From Leucobacter sp. PH1c (GTDB taxonomy: Bacteria > Actinomycetota > Actinomycetes > Actinomycetales > Microbacteriaceae): 64,000 nucleotides of DNA. The translations under genes were made by a program, and so were the position numbers. Under the pieces are notes generated by a model. It was given only the letters and a program-made list of their open reading frames with translations, was not told the origin of the DNA and ran no database searches. Where the stretch lies: NCBI RefSeq assembly GCF_000633415.1, contig NZ_AYMV01000032.1, positions 1 to 64,000 on the forward strand, read 5' to 3'. Positions 51,543 to 61,724 of the stretch are shown piece by piece (the first letter of the stretch is position 1; every line of letters starts with the position of its first letter).

Positions 51543-54500
51543 TCAGCCGTGACGCGCCGCGCGACGGCGGCTGAGGAGCAGCGCTCCGGCGCCGAGCAGG
51601 AGCAGCGCGGCTCCGCCCGCGACGAAGCCCCAGGCCGACGATCCGCCCGTGACGGCGAGGCCGCCCAGGGTCGTTCCGCCGTGCGGCGCCTCAGGCGTGC
51701 CGGGCGTCGGCTTCACCGGCTTCGTGGGATCCACGGGACCCGGGCCGGGGCCCGGGTTCACGGGCTTCAGCACGATGACGCCGGCATCCCACGTGGGATC
51801 GATGCCCTGCGTCGCGCGCACACCGCCGACGAGATCGCTGTACGGGTAGTCCGTCGTGAGATCCGTGTTGGTGTCGTCGAGCACGAACCACTCGCTGAAG
51901 CCGTTCTCGCCGGCGTTCGAGTCGAGCGCGGTCTTGCCGGCCGTGACCTTCGTGAACGCGTAGATCTTCGCCTGCGCCGGGGTCAGCTCGAACTGCACCC
52001 GGTACGTGCCCGCGGGCAGCTCGTCGAAGACGTACAGTCCGTACTCGTTGGTGGTGGTCTCGCCGACCAGCACCGCCTCGGTCTCACCGTTGTCGTTCAC
52101 GACCTCCTGGTACAGCCGCACGATGACGTCGGCGAGGGTGTACTCGCTGTCGTCCTGGAGGCCGTCCTTGTTCGTATCGATCCACACGACATCGCCGATC
52201 GCGTACGACTTCACCTGGAAGCCGAAGTCGAGCGTGGGATCGCGGTCGCCGTCGTTGACGAGATCGCCCGAGTTCGCGGTCCACGAGGAGGAATCCTGCG
52301 CGCGGTCATCGCCCGCGTGCTCCTTCGTGGGGGTGAGGCCCGTGAGGGCCTCCTGCGTGCGCGGGTCCTCGCGGTCGATCGACACCGTGTACTTCTGGCC
52401 GGGCTCGAGGGCGGGCAGCTGCGTGAACTCGTAGAAGCCGCTCGCATCGGTCCACACGGGCTCGACGGGGTCGCCGTTGATGTCCGTGACGGGCTTCCCG
52501 TCGGGACCGGTGAGCACGAGCTTCACGCCCTCGATCGGCCGCTCGTCGGGGCTCGTGCCCTGGATGCCGTCGCGGTCGACGTCGAGCCACACGTAGTCGC
52601 CCACCGACACCTGCTTCGCGAAGAAGCCGAAGTCGAGCGAGGGGTCGCGGTCGCCGTCGTTCACGAGGTCGTCGCGCGAGACGGCCGTCCACGAGGAGGA
52701 ATCCTGCTCGCGGTCGGTGCCCGCGTGCTCCTCCGTCGGCGTGAGGCCCGTGAGCGCCTGCTTCGTGCGGTCATCCGTGCGGTCGATCGAGACCGTGTAC
52801 GTCTCGCCGTCCTGGAGTGCGGGCAGGAGGGTGAACTCGTAGAAGCCGTTCGCATCGGTCCACACGGGTGCAACGGGGTCGCCGTTGATGTCCGTGACGG
52901 GCTTCCCGTCGGGACCGGTGAGCACGAGCTTCACGCCCTCGATCGGCCGCTCGTCGGGGCTCGTGCCCTGGATGCCGTCGCGGTCGACGTCGAGCCAGAC
53001 GTAATCGCCCACCGACACCTTCTTGACCGCGCTCATCGGGGTGTTGAAGAACTTCGTCTCCGGCGAGTTGCCCTCGCTGTCGACGACGAGCTCCACGGGC
53101 TCGTTGTTGCGCACGTACCCGGCGGGGGCGCGCAGCTCGTGGATCGTGTAGGTCCCGGCAGTCTTCACGGTCGGCACGAGGTCCGTGCCGTTCGGGCCCG
53201 CCAGTCGGAGCTTGCCGCCCACGACGTAGAGGTCGCTGAGCACCACGTCGCCCGCGGCGTTGCGCAGCTCGAAGCGCGCGTCCCGATCGGTGATCGCGGG
53301 GCCCTCGGGAACGATCGCGTCGAGCTTCGAGATGTCGAGCGGGAACTCGTTCGTCGGCGTGATCGTCACCTTGGAGGAGCCGATCACGTTCTCGACGCCC
53401 TCGCCGTAGGTGTAGTCCTTGACCTTCACCTTGAAGAAGAGCTCGATCTTCTCACCGCCGGGAACCGGCTGGCCCGAGACGATGTTGAGCGTGTTCCCCG
53501 CAGCGTTGTAGGTCACGACGATCTGCGTGCCCGGAATCGTGTAGCTGTCGGCCGGCGTCGCCGTGCCGTTCTGGATGTCGGACTTCTCGACGAAGCCGAG
53601 GAACTCGAGCTTCGAGTCGAGCTGATCGCTCACGTCGTAGAGGAGCTCGGTGAAGCTCATCGTGGGGAGCAGCTGCACCCGGTAGACGAACTCGTCCTGG
53701 ATGAGCTCCTTGGTGTCCTCGTCGACCTCCGCGCGGAGGTTCGTCGTGTAGCCGTCACGCTTGGGGTCGTAGACGGTCTTCGTGATCTGGATCTCGCTAC
53801 CCGCGACGCCGGCCTTCGACTGCGTGGTCGAGGTGTACTCGTACTCGATGTCGTCGCCCGAGTAGGAGGCCGAGTTCTTCACCACGAGCGCGGTGTTGCC
53901 CGTGATCTTGTGCGTCGGGATCGTCACCGTGAAGTGGTAGCCGTCCTTGCCGATCTCAGCCGGGAAGGCCGCGTTCGGCTGGAACACGAGGTGCTCGTCG
54001 GCGTTCAGCGACAGATCGAACATCGTGCCGTCGAGCTTCACGCCGCTGTCGCTCCGCCCGGTGAGGGTCTGTGCGATGTCCGCGAGCGTGTCCTCGGTGA
54101 CGTTGAGCGCCGTGTGATCGATCACGTCGACCACTCGCGACTTCGCCGCGTCGCCGAGGCCCTTGCCCACGGTGAACGTGAAGGGCACCTGCGCGACATC
54201 CTTGCCCTTCTCGAGCTCGATCACGTTGCGCTCGGCCCGCTTGTCGAAGCGGTTGCCGTCGTCGATGACGCTGCCCGGATCCTTCGGGGTGAAGGGGGTG
54301 TGGCTCGTCTCCGCGTCCTTCGTGAGGCCATCGCCGTAGGCGAAGGTGGCGCGGTTCGTGATCTTCGAGAACTCGATCTCCGCGTACTGGTTCGACGAGT
54401 TGGCGACCTTCGTGAGACCCGCGACGGAGAAGAGCTGCGCGCGTACCTTGATCTCGAACTTCTGCGTGGTGTCCTTGCCGACGTTGATCCGCAGGGTCTG

Positions 54501-55865
54501 GCCGTCGAGCTGGTACTTGCCGACGTAGGCGTCGCCGCCGAAGTCAGCCGCGCTCACCCCGGTGACCTGCTCAAACGTCGGGTCCAGGAAGTCGGCCTCG
54601 GACCCGAGCCAGCGCAGCTGCGCCGGGAGGATATCCGTGATGACGACGTTGCTGGTGAGGGCGTACTTGCCGCCCGCGAAGGCGTTGAACTCGCGGAGGT
54701 CGGCCTGCAGCGTGTAGATCACGTCCTTCGGCTCGACGAGGGTCACGCCGTCGGCCTCGAGCTCGACACGGGTCGAGCCGACCGTGCTCTTCTTGGTGAA
54801 GGCGGAGCCCACGTTCGGCTTGGGGTCGACCGGGGTGTAGCCGCCGAGCCAGGTGCCCGTGGTGTGGGTCTCGCCCGCGACGGTTGCGGAGTTGCCGAGG
54901 GTCACGCCGTAGAAGGCGCCCTCCTCGGCCTCCACGGCCTCGTACTCGGCCTGCAGCTTCGCGCGGAGCTTCGCGAGCGCCTGCGCATCCGCGATCTTCG
55001 CCTGGTAGGTGAGCACGTACTTCGAGTTCGCATCTGCGTCGAGGTCGAAGGAGAAGCCGGTGCCCGTGAACTGCTCGACGGTCTCGGCAGTCGGGCCGGT
55101 CTCGTTCATGCCCTTCGCGTCCCAGACCGTCTTCTGGAGCCCGAAGGATCCGGGAACGAGGGTGAGGTGCTCGCCGAGCTGATCCGCGATCGAGACGGTG
55201 CGCGCGGCGCCGCTGTCGACCGTGATCTGGTAGCTGATGGTCGCGTCCAGGAACTCATCACCGAGCACGACCTGGCCGTCGACGATCCGCGCCTGCGGCA
55301 GCGTGGACCCGGTGGAGGTCTTCGAGGTGGCCGGGGTCACGGTCGTGAAGTTGTCGCCGCCCTGCTTGACGACGATCGTCGTCGTCTGCTCCTGGCCCTT
55401 GACGCCCCAGCTGATCTCCTTCTCGGTGGACTCGGTGAGCGTGTCCACGGTGAAGTTCACGTCGATCACGCCCTGCGCGACCGTGATGGGGTCCTTGAAC
55501 TTGATCCGCAGCTCGCCGTTCTCCAGCGTGAACGACTCGACCGCCTTGTTCTCGGCGGGGATGCTGCCGATCGTGAAGCCCTGGGGCACCACGATGACGG
55601 CCTCGTGGCCGCCGGGCACCTTCGAGTTGTCGTACTTCACGCGCATCAGGTAGGACTGGCCCTCTTCGAAGACGGGCGTCCCGTTCCAGCTCCCGGAACC
55701 GGTCGGGAACTGCACGTCCACCGTCCCGGTCGGCGCGGCCATCGCGGGAGCGGCGTTCAGCCCCGTCACGACGAGCAGCGCGGTCAGCAGGCCGGCGAGC
55801 AGAGCCGAAAGCCCCCTCCAGCCCCGTTTGGGCGCGACGAACGCACCCGGATATGCCGTCGGCAT
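51543..55865 (-). CDS. LAxTG-anchored SdrD-like surface protein
   Basis: This 1440-residue protein has an N-terminal signal (SALLAGLLTALLVVTGLNAA, cleavage near APAMAAPT). Several adhesin/isopeptide-type domains extend to about residue 855. A SpaA-like domain (about 860-945) contains FELRNAAGDVVLSDL and GTYTIHELRAPAGYV. Two nearly identical SdrD B-type domains of 136 residues follow (about 950-1085 and 1086-1221, each starting VSVGDYVWLDVDRDGIQG), then a third diverged one (IGDVVWIDTNKDGLQDDSE). A Pro/Gly spacer precedes LAVTG (1403-1407), a membrane helix and RRRAARHG. LAxTG suggests a class E sortase; none is nearby. ATG 55865 follows GGGGGA. Confidence 0.92.
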   Translation of the reverse strand: MPTAYPGAFVAPKRGWRGLSALLAGLLTALLVVTGLNAAPAMAAPTGTVDVQFPTGSGSWNGTPVFEEGQSYLMRVKYDNSKVPGGHEAVIVVPQGFTIGSIPAENKAVESFTLENGELRIKFKDPITVAQGVIDVNFTVDTLTESTEKEISWGVKGQEQTTTIVVKQGGDNFTTVTPATSKTSTGSTLPQARIVDGQVVLGDEFLDATISYQITVDSGAARTVSIADQLGEHLTLVPGSFGLQKTVWDAKGMNETGPTAETVEQFTGTGFSFDLDADANSKYVLTYQAKIADAQALAKLRAKLQAEYEAVEAEEGAFYGVTLGNSATVAGETHTTGTWLGGYTPVDPKPNVGSAFTKKSTVGSTRVELEADGVTLVEPKDVIYTLQADLREFNAFAGGKYALTSNVVITDILPAQLRWLGSEADFLDPTFEQVTGVSAADFGGDAYVGKYQLDGQTLRINVGKDTTQKFEIKVRAQLFSVAGLTKVANSSNQYAEIEFSKITNRATFAYGDGLTKDAETSHTPFTPKDPGSVIDDGNRFDKRAERNVIELEKGKDVAQVPFTFTVGKGLGDAAKSRVVDVIDHTALNVTEDTLADIAQTLTGRSDSGVKLDGTMFDLSLNADEHLVFQPNAAFPAEIGKDGYHFTVTIPTHKITGNTALVVKNSASYSGDDIEYEYTSTTQSKAGVAGSEIQITKTVYDPKRDGYTTNLRAEVDEDTKELIQDEFVYRVQLLPTMSFTELLYDVSDQLDSKLEFLGFVEKSDIQNGTATPADSYTIPGTQIVVTYNAAGNTLNIVSGQPVPGGEKIELFFKVKVKDYTYGEGVENVIGSSKVTITPTNEFPLDISKLDAIVPEGPAITDRDARFELRNAAGDVVLSDLYVVGGKLRLAGPNGTDLVPTVKTAGTYTIHELRAPAGYVRNNEPVELVVDSEGNSPETKFFNTPMSAVKKVSVGDYVWLDVDRDGIQGTSPDERPIEGVKLVLTGPDGKPVTDINGDPVAPVWTDANGFYEFTLLPALQDGETYTVSIDRTDDRTKQALTGLTPTEEHAGTDREQDSSSWTAVSRDDLVNDGDRDPSLDFGFFAKQVSVGDYVWLDVDRDGIQGTSPDERPIEGVKLVLTGPDGKPVTDINGDPVEPVWTDASGFYEFTQLPALEPGQKYTVSIDREDPRTQEALTGLTPTKEHAGDDRAQDSSSWTANSGDLVNDGDRDPTLDFGFQVKSYAIGDVVWIDTNKDGLQDDSEYTLADVIVRLYQEVVNDNGETEAVLVGETTTNEYGLYVFDELPAGTYRVQFELTPAQAKIYAFTKVTAGKTALDSNAGENGFSEWFVLDDTNTDLTTDYPYSDLVGGVRATQGIDPTWDAGVIVLKPVNPGPGPGPVDPTKPVKPTPGTPEAPHGGTTLGGLAVTGGSSAWGFVAGGAALLLLGAGALLLSRRRAARHG
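52203..53018. repeat. 408-bp tandem repeat (two units) in the SdrD-like gene
   Basis: Units 52203-52610 and 52611-53018 are nearly identical at the DNA level, for example over the stretch encoding GVKLVLTGPDGKPVTDINGD. The period of 408 bp equals 136 codons, one SdrD B-type domain. Few differences suggest recent duplication or ongoing gene conversion. Confidence 0.9.
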
Positions 55866-56153
55866 GTATCCCCCAAATACTGTGTTTCGGCGCGCCAGAG
55901 TGGGCGGGCACACCGAATACCCCTGTCAAGTGTGTGCAGCGCGACTCGATCCCCCGAGCCGTGGCCTCGCGATCCCCATCGCGTGGCCGAGAGCTGGCAC
56001 ACGGGCGCAATTGCCCCGTTCGACAGTAGCACGCAGGCCCTCGAGTTGTCCGACTTCCCGGGCGCGTCGCCCGGCGCGCGAATTCCGCGTTTGATCTACC
56101 TGATCAGGGGTTACTCTGATTCGCAGGCGCGGGTTTCACCCCCAGGATCACCC

Positions 56154-57336: not shown

Positions 57337-59175
57337 TCAGTCCGCGGACGCGAGCGCCCCGGCGACCCGGCGGTGCGCGGCCCAGATCTCCTCCGGCACC
57401 CGCGCGAACTGCGCGAGGTGCGCCGCGCGGAAGCCCATCTCCTCCTGCCACCGGTCGACATCGACGGCGAGCAGCCGATCGAGCACGCCCTCCGGGAGCG
57501 CGAGGCCCGTGAGATCGAGCTCCTCGGGCAGGGGAACAGTGCCCACTGGGGTGCGCTGGCCATCGGCCGCGCCGTCGTGGTGCCGGAGCAGCCAGAGGAG
57601 CGCGCGCAGGTTCTCGCGGTACCCGGGCCAGAGGTACGCGCCACTCTCGGCGTCGCGCTGGAACCAGTTGACGTGCGCGAACGCGGGCGGCTGCGCCGCC
57701 GATCCGAGCACCCGGAGCCAGTGCTGCGCGTAGTCGCCCTCGCCGTAGGAGAGGAAGGGCCGCATCGACATCGGGTCGTAGCGCAGCTGGCCGGCGACGC
57801 CCTCGGCGGCGAAGGTGGCCTCGGCGCCGAGCGTGAGCCCGTCGTACACCCCCTCGGCGAGGTCGTCGATCGCGCGAACGAGCGGCTCGCGATCGCGCGT
57901 GCGCCCGCCGAAGATGATCGCGTCGACCACGACGCCGTCGGCCGCGTGCACGTCGGCGGCGATGTTCGGGATGCGGTCGAGCGGGATCGTGAAGCGGCTG
58001 TTCGGGTGAGCCCAGGGCGCATCTTGTTCCTCGGGCGCGCGCTCCGCGATGGGCCGGCCGCGCCAGTCGAGCCAGCCGGCGAGCTCGCGCGGCGGCTCGG
58101 GAGTGAGCCCCTCCCACCACACCTCCTCGGTGAGCTCGTTGTAGGCCGTGTTCGTGAAGATCGTGCCCGAACCCTCGGCGATCGCCGCCATGGCCGTGGG
58201 ATTCGTCTCCTCGTTCGTGTCCTTCGCGACGCCGAAAGCGCCGTGCTCGGGGTTGAACGCGCGCACGCGGCCTGCTTCGTCGACCCAGATCCACGCGATG
58301 TCGTCGCCGTAGAACTCCACTCGGTAGCGGTCGGCGAGCGCCTCGGGGGCGAGGGTCATTGCGAGGTTCGTCTTCCCGGACGCGCTCGGGAAGCCGCCGC
58401 AGATGTGCCGCTTCTCGCCCGTTTCGAGGTCGACGATCCCGAGCAGGAGGAACTGCTCCGCGAGGAAGCGGCCGGAGACCCTGCCGTCGTAGGACGCCTG
58501 ACGGAGGCCGTGGGCGATCTTCCCGAGCAGCGCGTTGCCACCGTAGGCCGAGCCGTAGTGGAGGATCGTGCGCTCGTCGGCGATCGTGGCGAACAGGCGC
58601 TGGTCGTCCGCGGTCCCCTGCCCGAGCGCGTCGAGGTCGCCCGTGACGTGCACGCCGCGCACGAAGAACGCGGGATCCGCGAGCCCCTCGATGTGCGCCA
58701 TCCCGACCCGGGCCATCCGGATCATCTGCAGCACGACGTTCCGGTCGTCGGTGAGCTCGACGCCTGCGGCGAACGCCTCGAGCGGGGTGCCCGGGGGCGC
58801 CATGAGGTAGGGCACCACGTACATGGTCTTCCCGCGGGAGGCGCCGCGCATCCGCTCGACGAGCAGCGGCTTCACCGTGTCCGAGTGGCGCCAGTTGTTG
58901 TACGCGCCGGCGTCGCGAGGATCCGCGGTCGCGACCACGGTGCGCTCCTCGGAACGCGCAGTATCCCGCTCGTGGGAGCGTGAGAAGTACCGGCCGCGCC
59001 CGGCCGGGAGGAGGGAGCCGTCGGCGAGCGCCTCCGCGAGCAGCCGCTCGTCGTCCGCGGCCCCGACCACCTCGATGCGGGCCGGCTCGGTGATCGCGGC
59101 CCACTCGGCGACGAACGCGCGGACGTGCGGGGCGCGGAGTTCGGCGGGGACCGCCGGCAGTTCGAAATCGCTCAT
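57337..59175 (-). CDS. pckG: Phosphoenolpyruvate carboxykinase, GTP-dependent (atypical P-loop)
   Basis: PckG converts oxaloacetate and GTP to phosphoenolpyruvate, GDP and CO2, the entry to gluconeogenesis. This 612-residue protein matches family length and motifs: GDDIAWIWVDE, FNPEHGAFGVAKDTNEETNP, and HVNWFQRDAESGAYLWPGYR near the nucleotide site. The P-loop reads GGFPSASGKTN, with Ser266 (TCC at 58378-58380) in place of the hyper-reactive cysteine of FPSACGKTN. SAYGGNALLGK also departs from the usual SGYGGNSLLGK. It may be active with altered redox sensitivity or be a divergent paralogue. Start ATG 59175 has GAAAGG upstream. It is divergent from nrdIF. Confidence 0.92.
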   Translation of the reverse strand: MSDFELPAVPAELRAPHVRAFVAEWAAITEPARIEVVGAADDERLLAEALADGSLLPAGRGRYFSRSHERDTARSEERTVVATADPRDAGAYNNWRHSDTVKPLLVERMRGASRGKTMYVVPYLMAPPGTPLEAFAAGVELTDDRNVVLQMIRMARVGMAHIEGLADPAFFVRGVHVTGDLDALGQGTADDQRLFATIADERTILHYGSAYGGNALLGKIAHGLRQASYDGRVSGRFLAEQFLLLGIVDLETGEKRHICGGFPSASGKTNLAMTLAPEALADRYRVEFYGDDIAWIWVDEAGRVRAFNPEHGAFGVAKDTNEETNPTAMAAIAEGSGTIFTNTAYNELTEEVWWEGLTPEPPRELAGWLDWRGRPIAERAPEEQDAPWAHPNSRFTIPLDRIPNIAADVHAADGVVVDAIIFGGRTRDREPLVRAIDDLAEGVYDGLTLGAEATFAAEGVAGQLRYDPMSMRPFLSYGEGDYAQHWLRVLGSAAQPPAFAHVNWFQRDAESGAYLWPGYRENLRALLWLLRHHDGAADGQRTPVGTVPLPEELDLTGLALPEGVLDRLLAVDVDRWQEEMGFRAAHLAQFARVPEEIWAAHRRVAGALASAD

Positions 59176-59361
59176 GGCAGATGCCTTTCTCGGGATCGAC
59201 TCGGCGATCCCAGTCTCGCAGAGCCGCGGCGTGCGCACGAGGGTGTCGTGCGTGCCCGGCGCGCTGCCCCACGCCGTTCGGATCGCACGCTCAGCCTAAT
59301 ATTCGACATGCCGAACTTTCAACTTGGGCGTGTCGTAGAAATCCGAAGCGCGCTCGTGTTA

Positions 59362-59409
59362 GGACTAGATATAGGGGCACGCGCCCCTCTCGAACACTAC
59401 ATCTAGTGC
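59362..59409 (+). promoter_or_regulatory. Two NrdR boxes upstream of nrdI
   Basis: Box 1 (59362-59377, GGACTAGATATAGGGG) and box 2 (59394-59409, ACACTACATCTAGTGC) both fit the NrdR consensus acaCTAtATaTAGtgt. Their centres are exactly 32 bp apart, three helical turns, which is the spacing used by NrdR. They lie just upstream of nrdI, indicating repression by NrdR when dATP is high. GAAAGGA ahead of GTG 59428 is the ribosome binding site. Confidence 0.88.
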
Positions 59410-59427: not shown

Positions 59428-59904
59428 GTGCCCAGCAGCCCGCCAATTCCGCCGCCCCGCGTGCTCACGGCCGCCGAATCGCCCGATCTCGTCTACTTCT
59501 CGAGCGTCTCCGAGAACACGCGCCGCTTCGTCGACCGGCTCGACCGAGCCGCGGCTCGGATCCCGCTGCGCCCCCGCATCGAGGGCGGGCTCCGCGTGAG
59601 CCGCCCGTTCGTGCTCGTCGTCCCCACGTACGGCGGGGGCGCCCGCGCCGACGCGGTGCCGAAGCAGGTGATCGCCTTCCTGAACGATCCGGTGAACCGC
59701 GACCTGCTGCGCGGGGTGATCACCGCGGGCAACACCAACTTCGGCGAGCACTTCTGCCTCGCGGGCCCCGTGATCTCCGGAAAGTGCGGCGTCCCCGAGC
59801 TCTACCGCTTCGAACTCCTGGGCACGGCGTACGACGTCGCCCGCGTCACCGACGGCCTCGCCCAGTTCTGGGCGGCGCCCCACCACCGAGAGGATCCCGC
59901 ATGA
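59428..59904 (+). CDS. nrdI: Ribonucleotide reductase flavodoxin NrdI
   Basis: NrdI is the flavodoxin that supplies an oxidant to activate class Ib NrdF, and is required for DOPA formation in class Ie. This 158-residue protein has the FMN loops [18 protein letters not shown] and VPTYGGG, then the family signature [20 protein letters not shown], and ends with [12 protein letters not shown]. An N-terminal extension of about 18 residues is not conserved. It starts at GTG. The nrdF start overlaps its stop (ATGA), so NrdI and NrdF are made together. Confidence 0.95.
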
Positions 59905-60932
59905 CCGCCCCGCACCCCACCAGCCCGAGCGCCGTGCAGCGCGCCATCACCCCGCCCGGCTTCCGGCACGATCCCGGAGCGCGGCTGCGGCCCGTCAACT
60001 GGAATCGCGTCGCGGACGAGAAGGACCTCGAGGTCTGGAACCGGCTCACCGCGAACTTCTGGCTTCCCGAGAAGGTGCCGCTGTCGAACGACCTGCCCGC
60101 CTGGCAGCGCCAGCTCACCGACGCGGAGCGGACGCTCACGATGCGCGTGTTCACGGGCCTCACCATGCTCGACACGGTCCAGGCGACCGTCGGGGAGATC
60201 AGCCAGATCCAGGACGCGCGCACCGAGCACGAGGAGGCGGTGTACACGAACATCGCGTTCATGCAGTCCGTGCACGCGCGCTCCTACTCCTCGGTCTTCT
60301 CCACGCTCACGAGCACGCCCGAGATCGACGACGCCTACCGCTGGGCCGTCGCCAACGATCTGCTGCAGGCGCGCTGCAAGCGCGTGCTCGTGCACTACTA
60401 CGGCGAGGATCCGCTGCGGCGCAAGGTCGCCTCCACACTGCTCTCCTCGCTGCTGCTCTACGCGGGCTTCTACCTGCCGCTGCACTTCTCGGTGCGCGCG
60501 ACGCTCACGAACACGGCCGACATGATCCGGCTCATCCTGCGCGACAAGGCCGTCCACGGCTACTACTCGGGCTACAAGTACCAGCGCGGTCTCGAGGCCG
60601 CGACGCCCGAGCGCCGGGAGGAAATGCGCGTGTTCACGTTCGCGCTGCTCGAGGAGCTCGTCGAGCTCGAACTCGCGTACTCCGGCGAGCTCTACGAGCC
60701 GCTCGGCCTCATGCCGGATGTCGCCGGATTCGTGCGCTACAACGCGAACAAGGCGCTCATGAACCTCGGATACCCCGCGCGCTTCGACGCCGGGGAGACG
60801 ACCGTGAGCCCCGAGATCCTCGCCGCGCTCGCGCCCGGCGCCGACGAGAACCACGACTTCTTCTCGGGCTCGGGATCCTCCTACATCATCGGGCGGGCCG
60901 AGGAGACGCGCGACGCGGACTGGGACTTCTAG
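59901..60932 (+). CDS. nrdF: Ribonucleotide reductase beta subunit NrdF, QSK variant (class Ie type)
   Basis: This 343-residue R2 protein provides the radical for ribonucleotide reduction. Aligned to E. coli NrdF (D67, E98, H101, Y105, E158, E192, H195), the residues here are D91, Q122, H125, Y129, S182, K216 and H219. All intervals match exactly (31, 3, 4, 53, 34, 3). The motifs are [25 protein letters not shown] and RDKAVHGYY. Three metal-ligand glutamates are thus Gln, Ser and Lys, the QSK pattern of metal-free class Ie enzymes, whose tyrosine (here Y129) becomes a DOPA radical via NrdI. The C-terminus DADWDF matches the tail that docks to NrdE. No nrdE or nrdH is adjacent. Confidence 0.95.
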
Positions 60933-60974: not shown

Positions 60975-61724
60975 GTGAGCGATCCCCTCCTCCCGCCGCG
61001 GCCCGGCGGGTCACGCCAGCCGTCCGCGCAGCCCTCGGCCGCGGAGCCGTCCGCGCTCCGTGCGCCCGAGGCGCCGGCAGCCGCAGCACCGACACCCGCA
61101 GCGCCGACGCCGCCCCCGCTCGCCCCCGTCCTCGCGCAGGTGCGGGCCGACGCCGCAGCGGGCCGCTTCGCCGTGTGGGGCCGCTCGACGCTCATCGACG
61201 AGTTCACCGGGGTGCCGTCGATCCCGCGCGAGCTGTTCGACGCGCTCCACGCGGCCGCCGGGATCCCTGCTGCATTCCCCGTCGGGAATGCGGGCCTCCT
61301 CCACGTCTACGGCTACTGGTTCTCCGCCGTGCCCACGCCGTTCGGCTTCAAGCGGGATCGCTGGCGCGACGGCGCGCTGGCCCGCGCGCTCGGCAAGCCG
61401 GCCGACGCTTTCCTGCTCTTCGGACACGGCACCACCGCGCTCGAGCGGGTGACAGCGGCCGCCCTGCCCGTGCTCCGCACACCCCCGGCCGCCGCCCTCC
61501 AGGCGGAGGCGATCATCGCGACGCCGGCCGGGCCGCGTCCCAGCCGGGTCGTGCTGCGGCGGGCGGATCCCGCCGGCCCCGCCGCGCTCGTCTACGGCAT
61601 CGCCGGCGCCTCCGGCCCGCTCGAACTCGTCACCGCCTTCCCGCTCGCGGGCGATCCCGAGCCGCTCCTCGGCGATTTCGCGGCCGAGCCCCGCCCGCGT
61701 TGGAATGCCGTCGTCGACTCGTAA
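60975..61724 (+). CDS. Unknown protein with Pro/Ala-rich N-terminus
   Basis: This 249-residue protein starts at GTG 60975, 42 bp after nrdF. The first 45 residues are low-complexity (Pro/Ala). The globular part contains FAVWGRSTLIDEFTGVPSIP, AFPVGNAGLLHVYGYWFSAV and TPFGFKRDRWRDGALARALG, which look conserved but match no family I can name. It has no membrane segment or signal peptide. Its closeness to nrdF may mean cotranscription, but the start lies near an AGGGG and could also be separately expressed. Confidence 0.7.
   Translation: MSDPLLPPRPGGSRQPSAQPSAAEPSALRAPEAPAAAAPTPAAPTPPPLAPVLAQVRADAAAGRFAVWGRSTLIDEFTGVPSIPRELFDALHAAAGIPAAFPVGNAGLLHVYGYWFSAVPTPFGFKRDRWRDGALARALGKPADAFLLFGHGTTALERVTAAALPVLRTPPAAALQAEAIIATPAGPRPSRVVLRRADPAGPAALVYGIAGASGPLELVTAFPLAGDPEPLLGDFAAEPRPRWNAVVDS

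Follow-up and report, generated by a model that had tools for sequence, protein, structure and literature searches.

A class Ie (QSK) ribonucleotide reductase gene of Leucobacter sp. PH1c behind putative MntR boxes and divergent from an unusual carboxykinase gene

Known class Ie systems and the Leucobacter locus

Class Ie ribonucleotide reductases (RNRs) of the QSK type have been described in Actinomycetota. A GTDB survey counted 275 nrdF-QSK genes, spread over 266 species genomes that all belong to Actinomycetota, with 148 of the genomes in Actinomycetales; the operon order was nrdIEF in 106 cases and nrdIF without nrdE in 104, and 67 species (65 in another passage) relied on a QSK RNR alone (main text of PMC11846895). 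The QSK protein of Gardnerella vaginalis (Bifidobacterium vaginale) held trace Mn and Fe only, its 3,4-dihydroxyphenylalanine (DOPA) was shown, and its activity depended on DOPA and reduced NrdI (same text, PMC11846895). Here we analyzed a gene of this type in Leucobacter sp. PH1c, on a stretch of 64,000 nucleotides (contig NZ_AYMV01000032.1, positions 1 to 64,000, forward strand) that is called the window below. We consider it quite likely that this gene provides an RNR for Mn starvation. A metal-free R2 subunit and its NrdI would work with the resident R1 subunit under MntR repression and NrdR control, and a divergent pckG gene would share the operator region. This reading was drawn from sequence comparisons, its regulatory part from motifs and gene neighborhoods.

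The class Ie RNR of Streptococcus pyogenes was repressed by Fe and Mn (Do et al. 2019, with a title naming MtsR, both as told in PMC8463856). Like the Leucobacter enzyme as read here, it is a class Ie RNR under metal repression beside an Mn class Ib RNR; it differs in being a VPK variant, in its phylum and in its nrdFIE order. The general idea of a metal-regulated class Ie RNR is therefore not new. MtsR is a DtxR-family regulator, and we know of no phosphoenolpyruvate carboxykinase (PEPCK) partner of the S. pyogenes enzyme.

The window gene nrdF (59901..60932, + strand) is an open reading frame (ORF) without internal stop and encodes an R2 subunit of 343 residues. The end of nrdI (59428..59904, + strand; 158 residues) overlaps its start by 4 bases. 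The NrdI product scored 145 bits with TIGR00333 (cut-off 74.65), matched PF07972, and had chains named NrdI as its best PDB matches. NCBIfam and Pfam models likewise identified the NrdF product. The closest named relative was Leucobacter chromiireducens (90% identity), in which the gene order pckG, nrdI, nrdF, HAD, phnD is the same. A class Ib nrdI-nrdE-nrdF set is located elsewhere in the own genome (G000:C1, about 64.9–68.5 kb), and its NrdF is 64% identical to the window NrdF. The single R1 match (PF02867) in the own genome is the nrdE of this class Ib set; the PF02867 search found no second R1. The QSK RNR is not the only RNR of the organism.

The window gene is one more nrdIF-type QSK case. 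It shares its gene order, the lack of nrdE in the operon and an nrdE elsewhere in the genome with the 104 such loci of Actinomycetota (PMC11846895). With the Gardnerella R2eQSK (8rag/8rah) it has in common Q/S/K, the Asp, two His and Tyr, the clade and the presence of nrdI, whereas it differs in the nrdIF operon without nrdE, in standing alongside a class Ib set and in lying behind an mntC-type operator. The first-pass annotation had singled out a QSK enzyme in an actinobacterium. The QSK set was confirmed, and the host is no exception, as all GTDB QSK genes lie in Actinomycetota (PMC11846895), which rules out novelty on that point. The QSK interpretation is already known, and what is new is the setting, namely the operator, the neighbors and the PEPCK. 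A word search of the main text of PMC11846895 returned no MntR, transcription, riboswitch or carboxykinase. A literature search, mostly at abstract level, returned nothing on class Ie or nrdF with MntR or a riboswitch, on a Mn-independent PEPCK, or on the operator palindrome.

Class Ie (QSK) identity of NrdF

Translation of the ORF confirmed Gln122 (codon CAG, 60264..60266), Ser182 (TCC, 60444..60446) and Lys216 (AAG, 60546..60548), all on the + strand, each at a position that is Glu in class Ib. Pairwise alignments to 140 NrdF loci gave D-Q-H-Y-S-K-H at the seven ligand and radical positions of 56 loci, the window's own included, and D-E-H-Y-E-E-H in the remaining 84; in this count some rows repeat one locus, and 2 of the 56 QSK loci also hold a class Ib copy. 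No intermediate between the two ligand sets was found among the 140 loci. A 22-protein alignment likewise placed Q, S and K where class Ib has its three Glu, and D91, H125, Y129 and H219 were invariant, as the first-pass annotation had claimed. The residue intervals of the window NrdF are 31/3/4/53/34/3, which we take to match those of Escherichia coli NrdF. The codon of Tyr129, the expected DOPA site, is at 60285..60287 (+ strand). This residue pairs with the Tyr of 8rag/8rah, where Y150 is modified according to the entry title.

The same annotation had proposed an R2 tree and an alignment to the proteins of S. pyogenes, Aerococcus urinae and Mesoplasma florum. These three are of the VPK variant, and the fitting reference is the Gardnerella R2eQSK (PMC11846895). 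The tree was made from 103 NrdF rows (97 different) and 329 columns, with the three trait columns kept in and most of the class Ib loci from the own genus and family excluded beforehand. In it, 53 QSK rows were split from 50 EEE rows by one change with support 100/100. The window protein and Gardnerella were both inside the QSK clade, and the window NrdF grouped with that of L. chromiireducens (support 100/96).

A phmmer search against the PDB ranked 8rag/8rah first (E about 1e-153). Foldseek with an AlphaFold2 model (mean predicted local distance difference test score, 84.5) also placed 8rag/8rah, the class Ie R2 of Gardnerella vaginalis, first. The TM-score was 0.74 and the root mean square deviation was 14 Å, so this result speaks for the family and not for active-site geometry. 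The NrdF of a Gardnerella locus was 68% identical to the window NrdF over the aligned part. The alignments, the tree and the closest structures support the class Ie assignment, by which the window NrdF is a real member of the QSK R2 family.

Operator region, regulators and alternatives

Between pckG and nrdI, the palindrome TTCGACATGCCGAA is located at 59302-59315; its pattern has no other exact match in the window. It forms the center of operator box 1, AATATTCGACATGCCGAACTTT (59298..59319, no strand assigned), a putative MntR box with the motif of Leucobacter mntC operators. Box 2, also putative and without assigned strand (59320..59341), has the core TTGGGCGTGTCGTA and follows 22 bp on; with 6.1 bits it is weak alone, but a second box is found again at the same distance in further QSK promoters. 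Two NrdR-box-like sites come next on the + strand (59362..59377 and 59394..59409), 32 bp apart from start to start. The pair scored 29 of 32 against the NrdR-box consensus, and none of 200 shuffles was as good. The same layout was present in most other QSK promoters read from Leucobacter and related Microbacteriaceae, including those with nrdE in the operon. One Leucobacter genome (G014) was an exception, with the NrdR pair absent.

The motif was defined on mntC genes. Gapped 5-base palindromes were enumerated in 30 Leucobacter mntC upstream regions, the own one included in the set, without reference to QSK promoters. GTTCG-N6-CGAAC was the commonest, exact in 22 of the 30, and the best unrelated gapped palindrome word reached 4 of 30. 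In the remaining 8 regions the best segment was an imperfect version, which in the own genome is AAAGTTAGACACGCCTAACTTT. A matrix was then made from 30 picked mntC sites. With it, the window site scored 30.6 bits, the highest of all promoters scored, and none of 200 shuffles was as good. For the own class Ib set, nothing scored above -5.4 bits in 2.4 kb before nrdI.

The same matrix was applied to QSK and class Ib promoters. Of 55 extracted promoters, 45 QSK promoters were kept after 10 were dropped (repeats, near-copies and the own class Ib set). The 31 class Ib promoters came from those among the 84 loci in which nrdI was present and preceded by 850 bases or more. The 450-base scan covers mostly nrdH in nrdHIEF operons, and QSK loci in which no nrdI was found (L049, L072, L078 and L082) are outside it. 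Twenty-seven of the 45 QSK promoters scored above the best class Ib promoter (9.7 bits; 27/45 vs 0/31, Fisher p = 1e-8 with relatedness ignored), and at most 2 of 200 shuffles were as good in 28 of the 45.

A site model (model R1) was built from 29 mntC sites with the own genome excluded and run over 54 genomes. Like the palindrome enumeration, this genome scan was free of the QSK-derived shape. Its best scored own-genome match was at 59302-59319 (E 0.036; the next was 0.15). With filters off over 72 kb (the window plus the own mntC and own class Ib loci), the window site had the top score (16.3 bits, E 0.0008), followed by the own mntC site (9.0 bits, E 0.2); the own class Ib locus had no match at E 5. 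At the own-genome mntH only a weak half-box was seen by eye.

Genes for Mn uptake and its control were also found near QSK operons. Within up to 5 kb on each side, mntC, mntR or the linked pckG was present in 20 of 41 named QSK loci vs 0 of 39 named class Ib loci (p = 1e-7, relatedness ignored). The mntC gene was near 5 of the 41 (Brevibacterium, Brachybacterium), an MntR-type regulator near 11 (Brachybacterium, Corynebacterium, Actinomyces), and the linked pckG near 7. In Brachybacterium, mntC is divergent from nrdI with the palindrome about 70 bases before the aligned mntC start; in Brevibacterium, the palindrome-mntC distance is about 460 bases. The main Corynebacterium group (L059-L061, L063, L064) has the regulator gene directly upstream of nrdI. 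One short Leucobacter contig (G191:C89, locus L153, about 7.0–13.9 kb) carries nrdIEF-QSK, pckG and mntC in a row. The G191 genome also holds a second nrdF, 85% identical to the window's, and a second mntC.

The Mn transporter-type protein of the own genome (P0002, encoded at L184) has the Mn transporter MntC 4irm as its best PDB match (E 4e-104), and MntC-type proteins were found in 38 of 54 Leucobacter genomes. Three DtxR-family regulators are encoded in the own genome (L181, L182 and L183). The closest PDB structure to L181 is 5zr4 (E 4e-66), which we take to be Mycobacterium tuberculosis MntR. At 12 loci, regulator genes beside QSK operons were 50–61% identical to L181, 29–34% to L183 and 28–38% to L182. 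The window operator thus has the motif of Mn transporter-type genes of relatives, and its boxes are putative MntR boxes.

Several points weigh against reading the operator as an MntR-type site. Regarding the motif, model R1 scored only 150 of 3124 own-genome candidates and gave a modest E (0.036), and its listed matches did not include the own mntC site. The exact palindrome was present in only 4 of the 45 QSK promoters, level with other words; GTTCG-N6-CGAAC was not singled out there because most QSK boxes are imperfect. The shape used to pick the matrix sites came from QSK boxes, other near-copies remain among the 45 QSK promoters, and for 5 of the 31 class Ib promoters, none of which scored above 9.7 bits, no more than 1 of 100 shuffles equaled the score. 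Regarding other lineages, the QSK operator of the main Corynebacterium group is AACTACG-N6-CGTAGTT, as opposed to a GTTCAA-type box, judged by eye, at the PF01297 gene there. In eight Bifidobacterium and Gardnerella loci, a 1.3 kb scan found no such box (best 0.7 bits), which might be expected in hosts that rely on the QSK enzyme as main aerobic RNR. Regarding the proteins, P0002 exceeded no NCBIfam cut-off; its best model was zinc AztC (197.6 of 350), with Mn/Fe EfaA at 191.8 of 485. The Mn-type reading of the operator depends on P0002 being a Mn-type protein. Two of nine Leucobacter QSK genomes (G014 and G180) had no such mntC at E 1e-40. L181 scored 169.9 bits with the NCBIfam MntR model (cut-off 350), so its MntR name rests on the closest structure, and L182 and L183 are two further DtxR-family candidates.

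PF01297 genes of 16 genomes (30 loci) were inspected by eye as a lineage check. The same box type was found in B. luteolum, Gulosibacter and Pseudoglutamicibacter, and a similar one in C. amycolatum. The box did not match in C. minutissimum and C. flavescens, and none was seen for M. lylae. Upstream of nrdI at L059 and L063, tandem AACTACG-N6-CGTAGTT-like palindromes lie 22–23 bp apart behind an mntR-type gene. These palindromes appear to be a different operator for the same regulator family.

If the boxes act as proposed, Mn-loaded MntR (L181) on the two tandem boxes would keep nrdIF off, and NrdR would add control through its own sites. Under Mn shortage, the class Ib NrdF would not be metallated, MntR would release the operator, and the metal-free R2 would take over. 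By analogy with the Gardnerella and VPK enzymes, NrdI would, with O2, make superoxide, by which Tyr129 would be hydroxylated to DOPA and the radical raised. The metal-free R2 would then hand its radical on to the R1 encoded in the resident class Ib operon; this pairing is proposed because the PF02867 search of the genome gave no second R1. The divergent pckG, sharing the operator region, would probably be induced as well.

Alternatively, an iron sensor (DtxR/IdeR, L183, or L182) could read the operator, and the enzyme would be an iron-starvation RNR. The genome does encode three candidate regulators, of which L183 exceeded the DtxR cut-off (306 vs 290 bits), and the own mntC box has TTAG/CTAA halves, like iron boxes. 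Iron as well as Mn repression is said to be reported by Do et al. 2019 (PMC8463856). Nevertheless, at the 30 Leucobacter loci read, the top-ranking palindrome ahead of the MntC-type gene is a box of this type, and the regulators beside QSK operons at 12 loci are nearer L181 than L183 or L182; one distant regulator beside a QSK operon (L158) is far from all three (32% to L181 and L183, 37% to L182). On balance, we regard an iron sensor as unlikely.

It is very improbable that the QSK protein still matures with a metal (e.g., one ion, or Cu). Asp91 and both His are kept, and Cu(I)-bound class Ie R2 structures exist (7mmt-7mmv, by their entry titles), but the Gardnerella QSK protein, with no more than trace Mn and Fe, showed activity when its Tyr had become DOPA (PMC11846895). 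Finally, we give hardly any credence to nrdF-QSK being a relic or serving something other than ribonucleotide reduction: with a class Ib set present, cells well supplied with Mn have no obvious need of the gene, but its ratio of nonsynonymous to synonymous substitution rates (dN/dS) against the nearest named relative was 0.083 and therefore indicates purifying selection, nrdI is intact, the C-terminal tail ends in DWDF like the class Ib protein in the alignment, and about 65–67 species live on a QSK RNR alone (PMC11846895).

The carboxykinase, other neighbors and distribution

The Mn-starvation reading may extend to pckG (57337..59175, - strand), which faces nrdI across the operator. Its ORF is open from a GTG at 59238; the ATG at 59175 is the suggested start, because the leader of a relative (L052) holds a stop. 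By family, the product is a GTP-type PEPCK (PRK04210, 607 bits over a cut-off of 504) with the P-loop GKTN present. It is distant from 4r43, presumably the M. tuberculosis PEPCK, with 396 bits over about 560 residues. The dN/dS of pckG against L. chromiireducens was 0.128.

The 13 distinct linked loci all have Ile, Gln and Ser in place of rat Lys244, His264 and Cys288, and all keep the equivalent of Asp311. These loci come from Leucobacter and other Microbacteriaceae, Micrococcus, Pseudoglutamicibacter and Corynebacterium flavescens. Lys, His, Asp and Cys are present in 4r43 and in four of four reference PEPCKs taken from plasmid records. Compared with 4r43, the linked enzymes share the family, the P-loop GKT and the active-site Arg, Tyr and Asp, and they differ by K244I, H264Q and C288S. 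The top PDB match of the product, 5i67, also has Ser at the P-loop; we take it to be an engineered mutant. His264 and Asp311 are the remaining Mn ligands of PEPCK beside Lys244. Lys244 itself is required to bind the Mn by which oxaloacetate is held (as stated in PMC7948413). The linked PEPCK is thus without two of three Mn ligands and without the P-loop Cys at 13 of 13 loci. With 66% identity between the C. flavescens copy and that of the window, the linked PEPCKs may form a subfamily of their own that moves together with the QSK operon.

More tentatively, and less likely than not in our view, the pckG-nrdIF intergenic region may drive a two-enzyme Mn-sparing module, and QSK RNRs broadly may be fallbacks wired to the cofactor sensor of the resident RNR. 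If so, both divergent enzymes, from Mn-dependent families, would have lost Mn ligands, and the PEPCK would no longer need its catalytic-site Mn. Replication and the PEP-oxaloacetate node would keep running in Mn-starved cells. MntR (Mn) wiring would be found beside class Ib, and a cobalamin riboswitch beside a B12-dependent RNR. The operator and neighbor evidence offers a concrete, testable answer in actinobacteria, namely Mn starvation. Provided that it is active, the paired PEPCK would add a new case of a metal-freed enzyme, next to the best-known one and facing the same operator.

A cobalamin riboswitch (RF00174) was located before nrdI in 5 of the 41 QSK loci, four from Streptomyces (L051, L053, L056 and L062) and one from an Acidimicrobiia metagenome-assembled genome (L067), all with nrdIEF operons. 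The other 36 had none at the gathering score. We presume that these Streptomyces have a B12-dependent RNR. The riboswitch-linked QSK operons suggest a B12-starvation fallback there. A TTAGG-N4-CCTAA-type palindrome was present some 400–500 bases before nrdI in 3 of the 4 Streptomyces loci (L051, L056 and L062). With the mntC matrix in a 1.3 kb scan, it scored 13.6 bits (L051) and 17.7 bits (L056); the L062 palindrome is counted among the 27 and 28 of 45 QSK promoters above. L051 and L053 carry a second cobalamin riboswitch on the opposite strand.

For the distribution of the window gene, long matches of 83–90% identity were found in 8 of 54 Leucobacter genomes besides the own one (G156, G191 twice, G014, G154, G166, G167, G180 and G178). 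The Q/S/K set was read in one copy from each of these eight genomes (L122-L128 and L017). A ninth genome (G186) gave a partial match of 82%, and other genomes of the genus gave matches of about 58–67%, fragments or none. In a family sample of 150 genomes, matches of 84–87% besides the own genome were found in G014, G024, G051, G056, G121 (twice) and G136. Carriage on a mobile element was rejected: the searches (E limits 1e-60 and 1e-40) matched 129 plasmid and 239 phage records, and all of these, counted by identity and not by the QSK triad, stayed below 80% identity.

Further observations concern single loci. G121 has two QSK-type nrdF copies (L149 and L150), one in an operon divergent from mntC and the other in an operon divergent from pckG. 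In L070 and L071 (Bifidobacterium from bees, by name), nrdI-nrdF-QSK is immediately followed by a second nrdI, nrdE and a class Ib nrdF in one stretch. The NrdF of Helcobacillus (L054) is almost identical to that of Pseudoglutamicibacter, a different family, and this near-identity suggests a recent transfer. An integrase/transposase-like ORF was seen by eye at about 0.8–1.8 kb, upstream of the QSK operon in L054.

In the window, nrdF is immediately followed by a 249-residue ORF (60975-61724) that matched no Pfam or NCBIfam model at E 0.001; L. chromiireducens has a 63% identical copy behind its nrdF. Beyond pckG, a large repeat-rich, surface-protein-like ORF is located at 51543-55913 (- strand). 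In G167 (L157), a similar-looking large repeat-rich ORF, judged by eye only, is divergent to nrdI.
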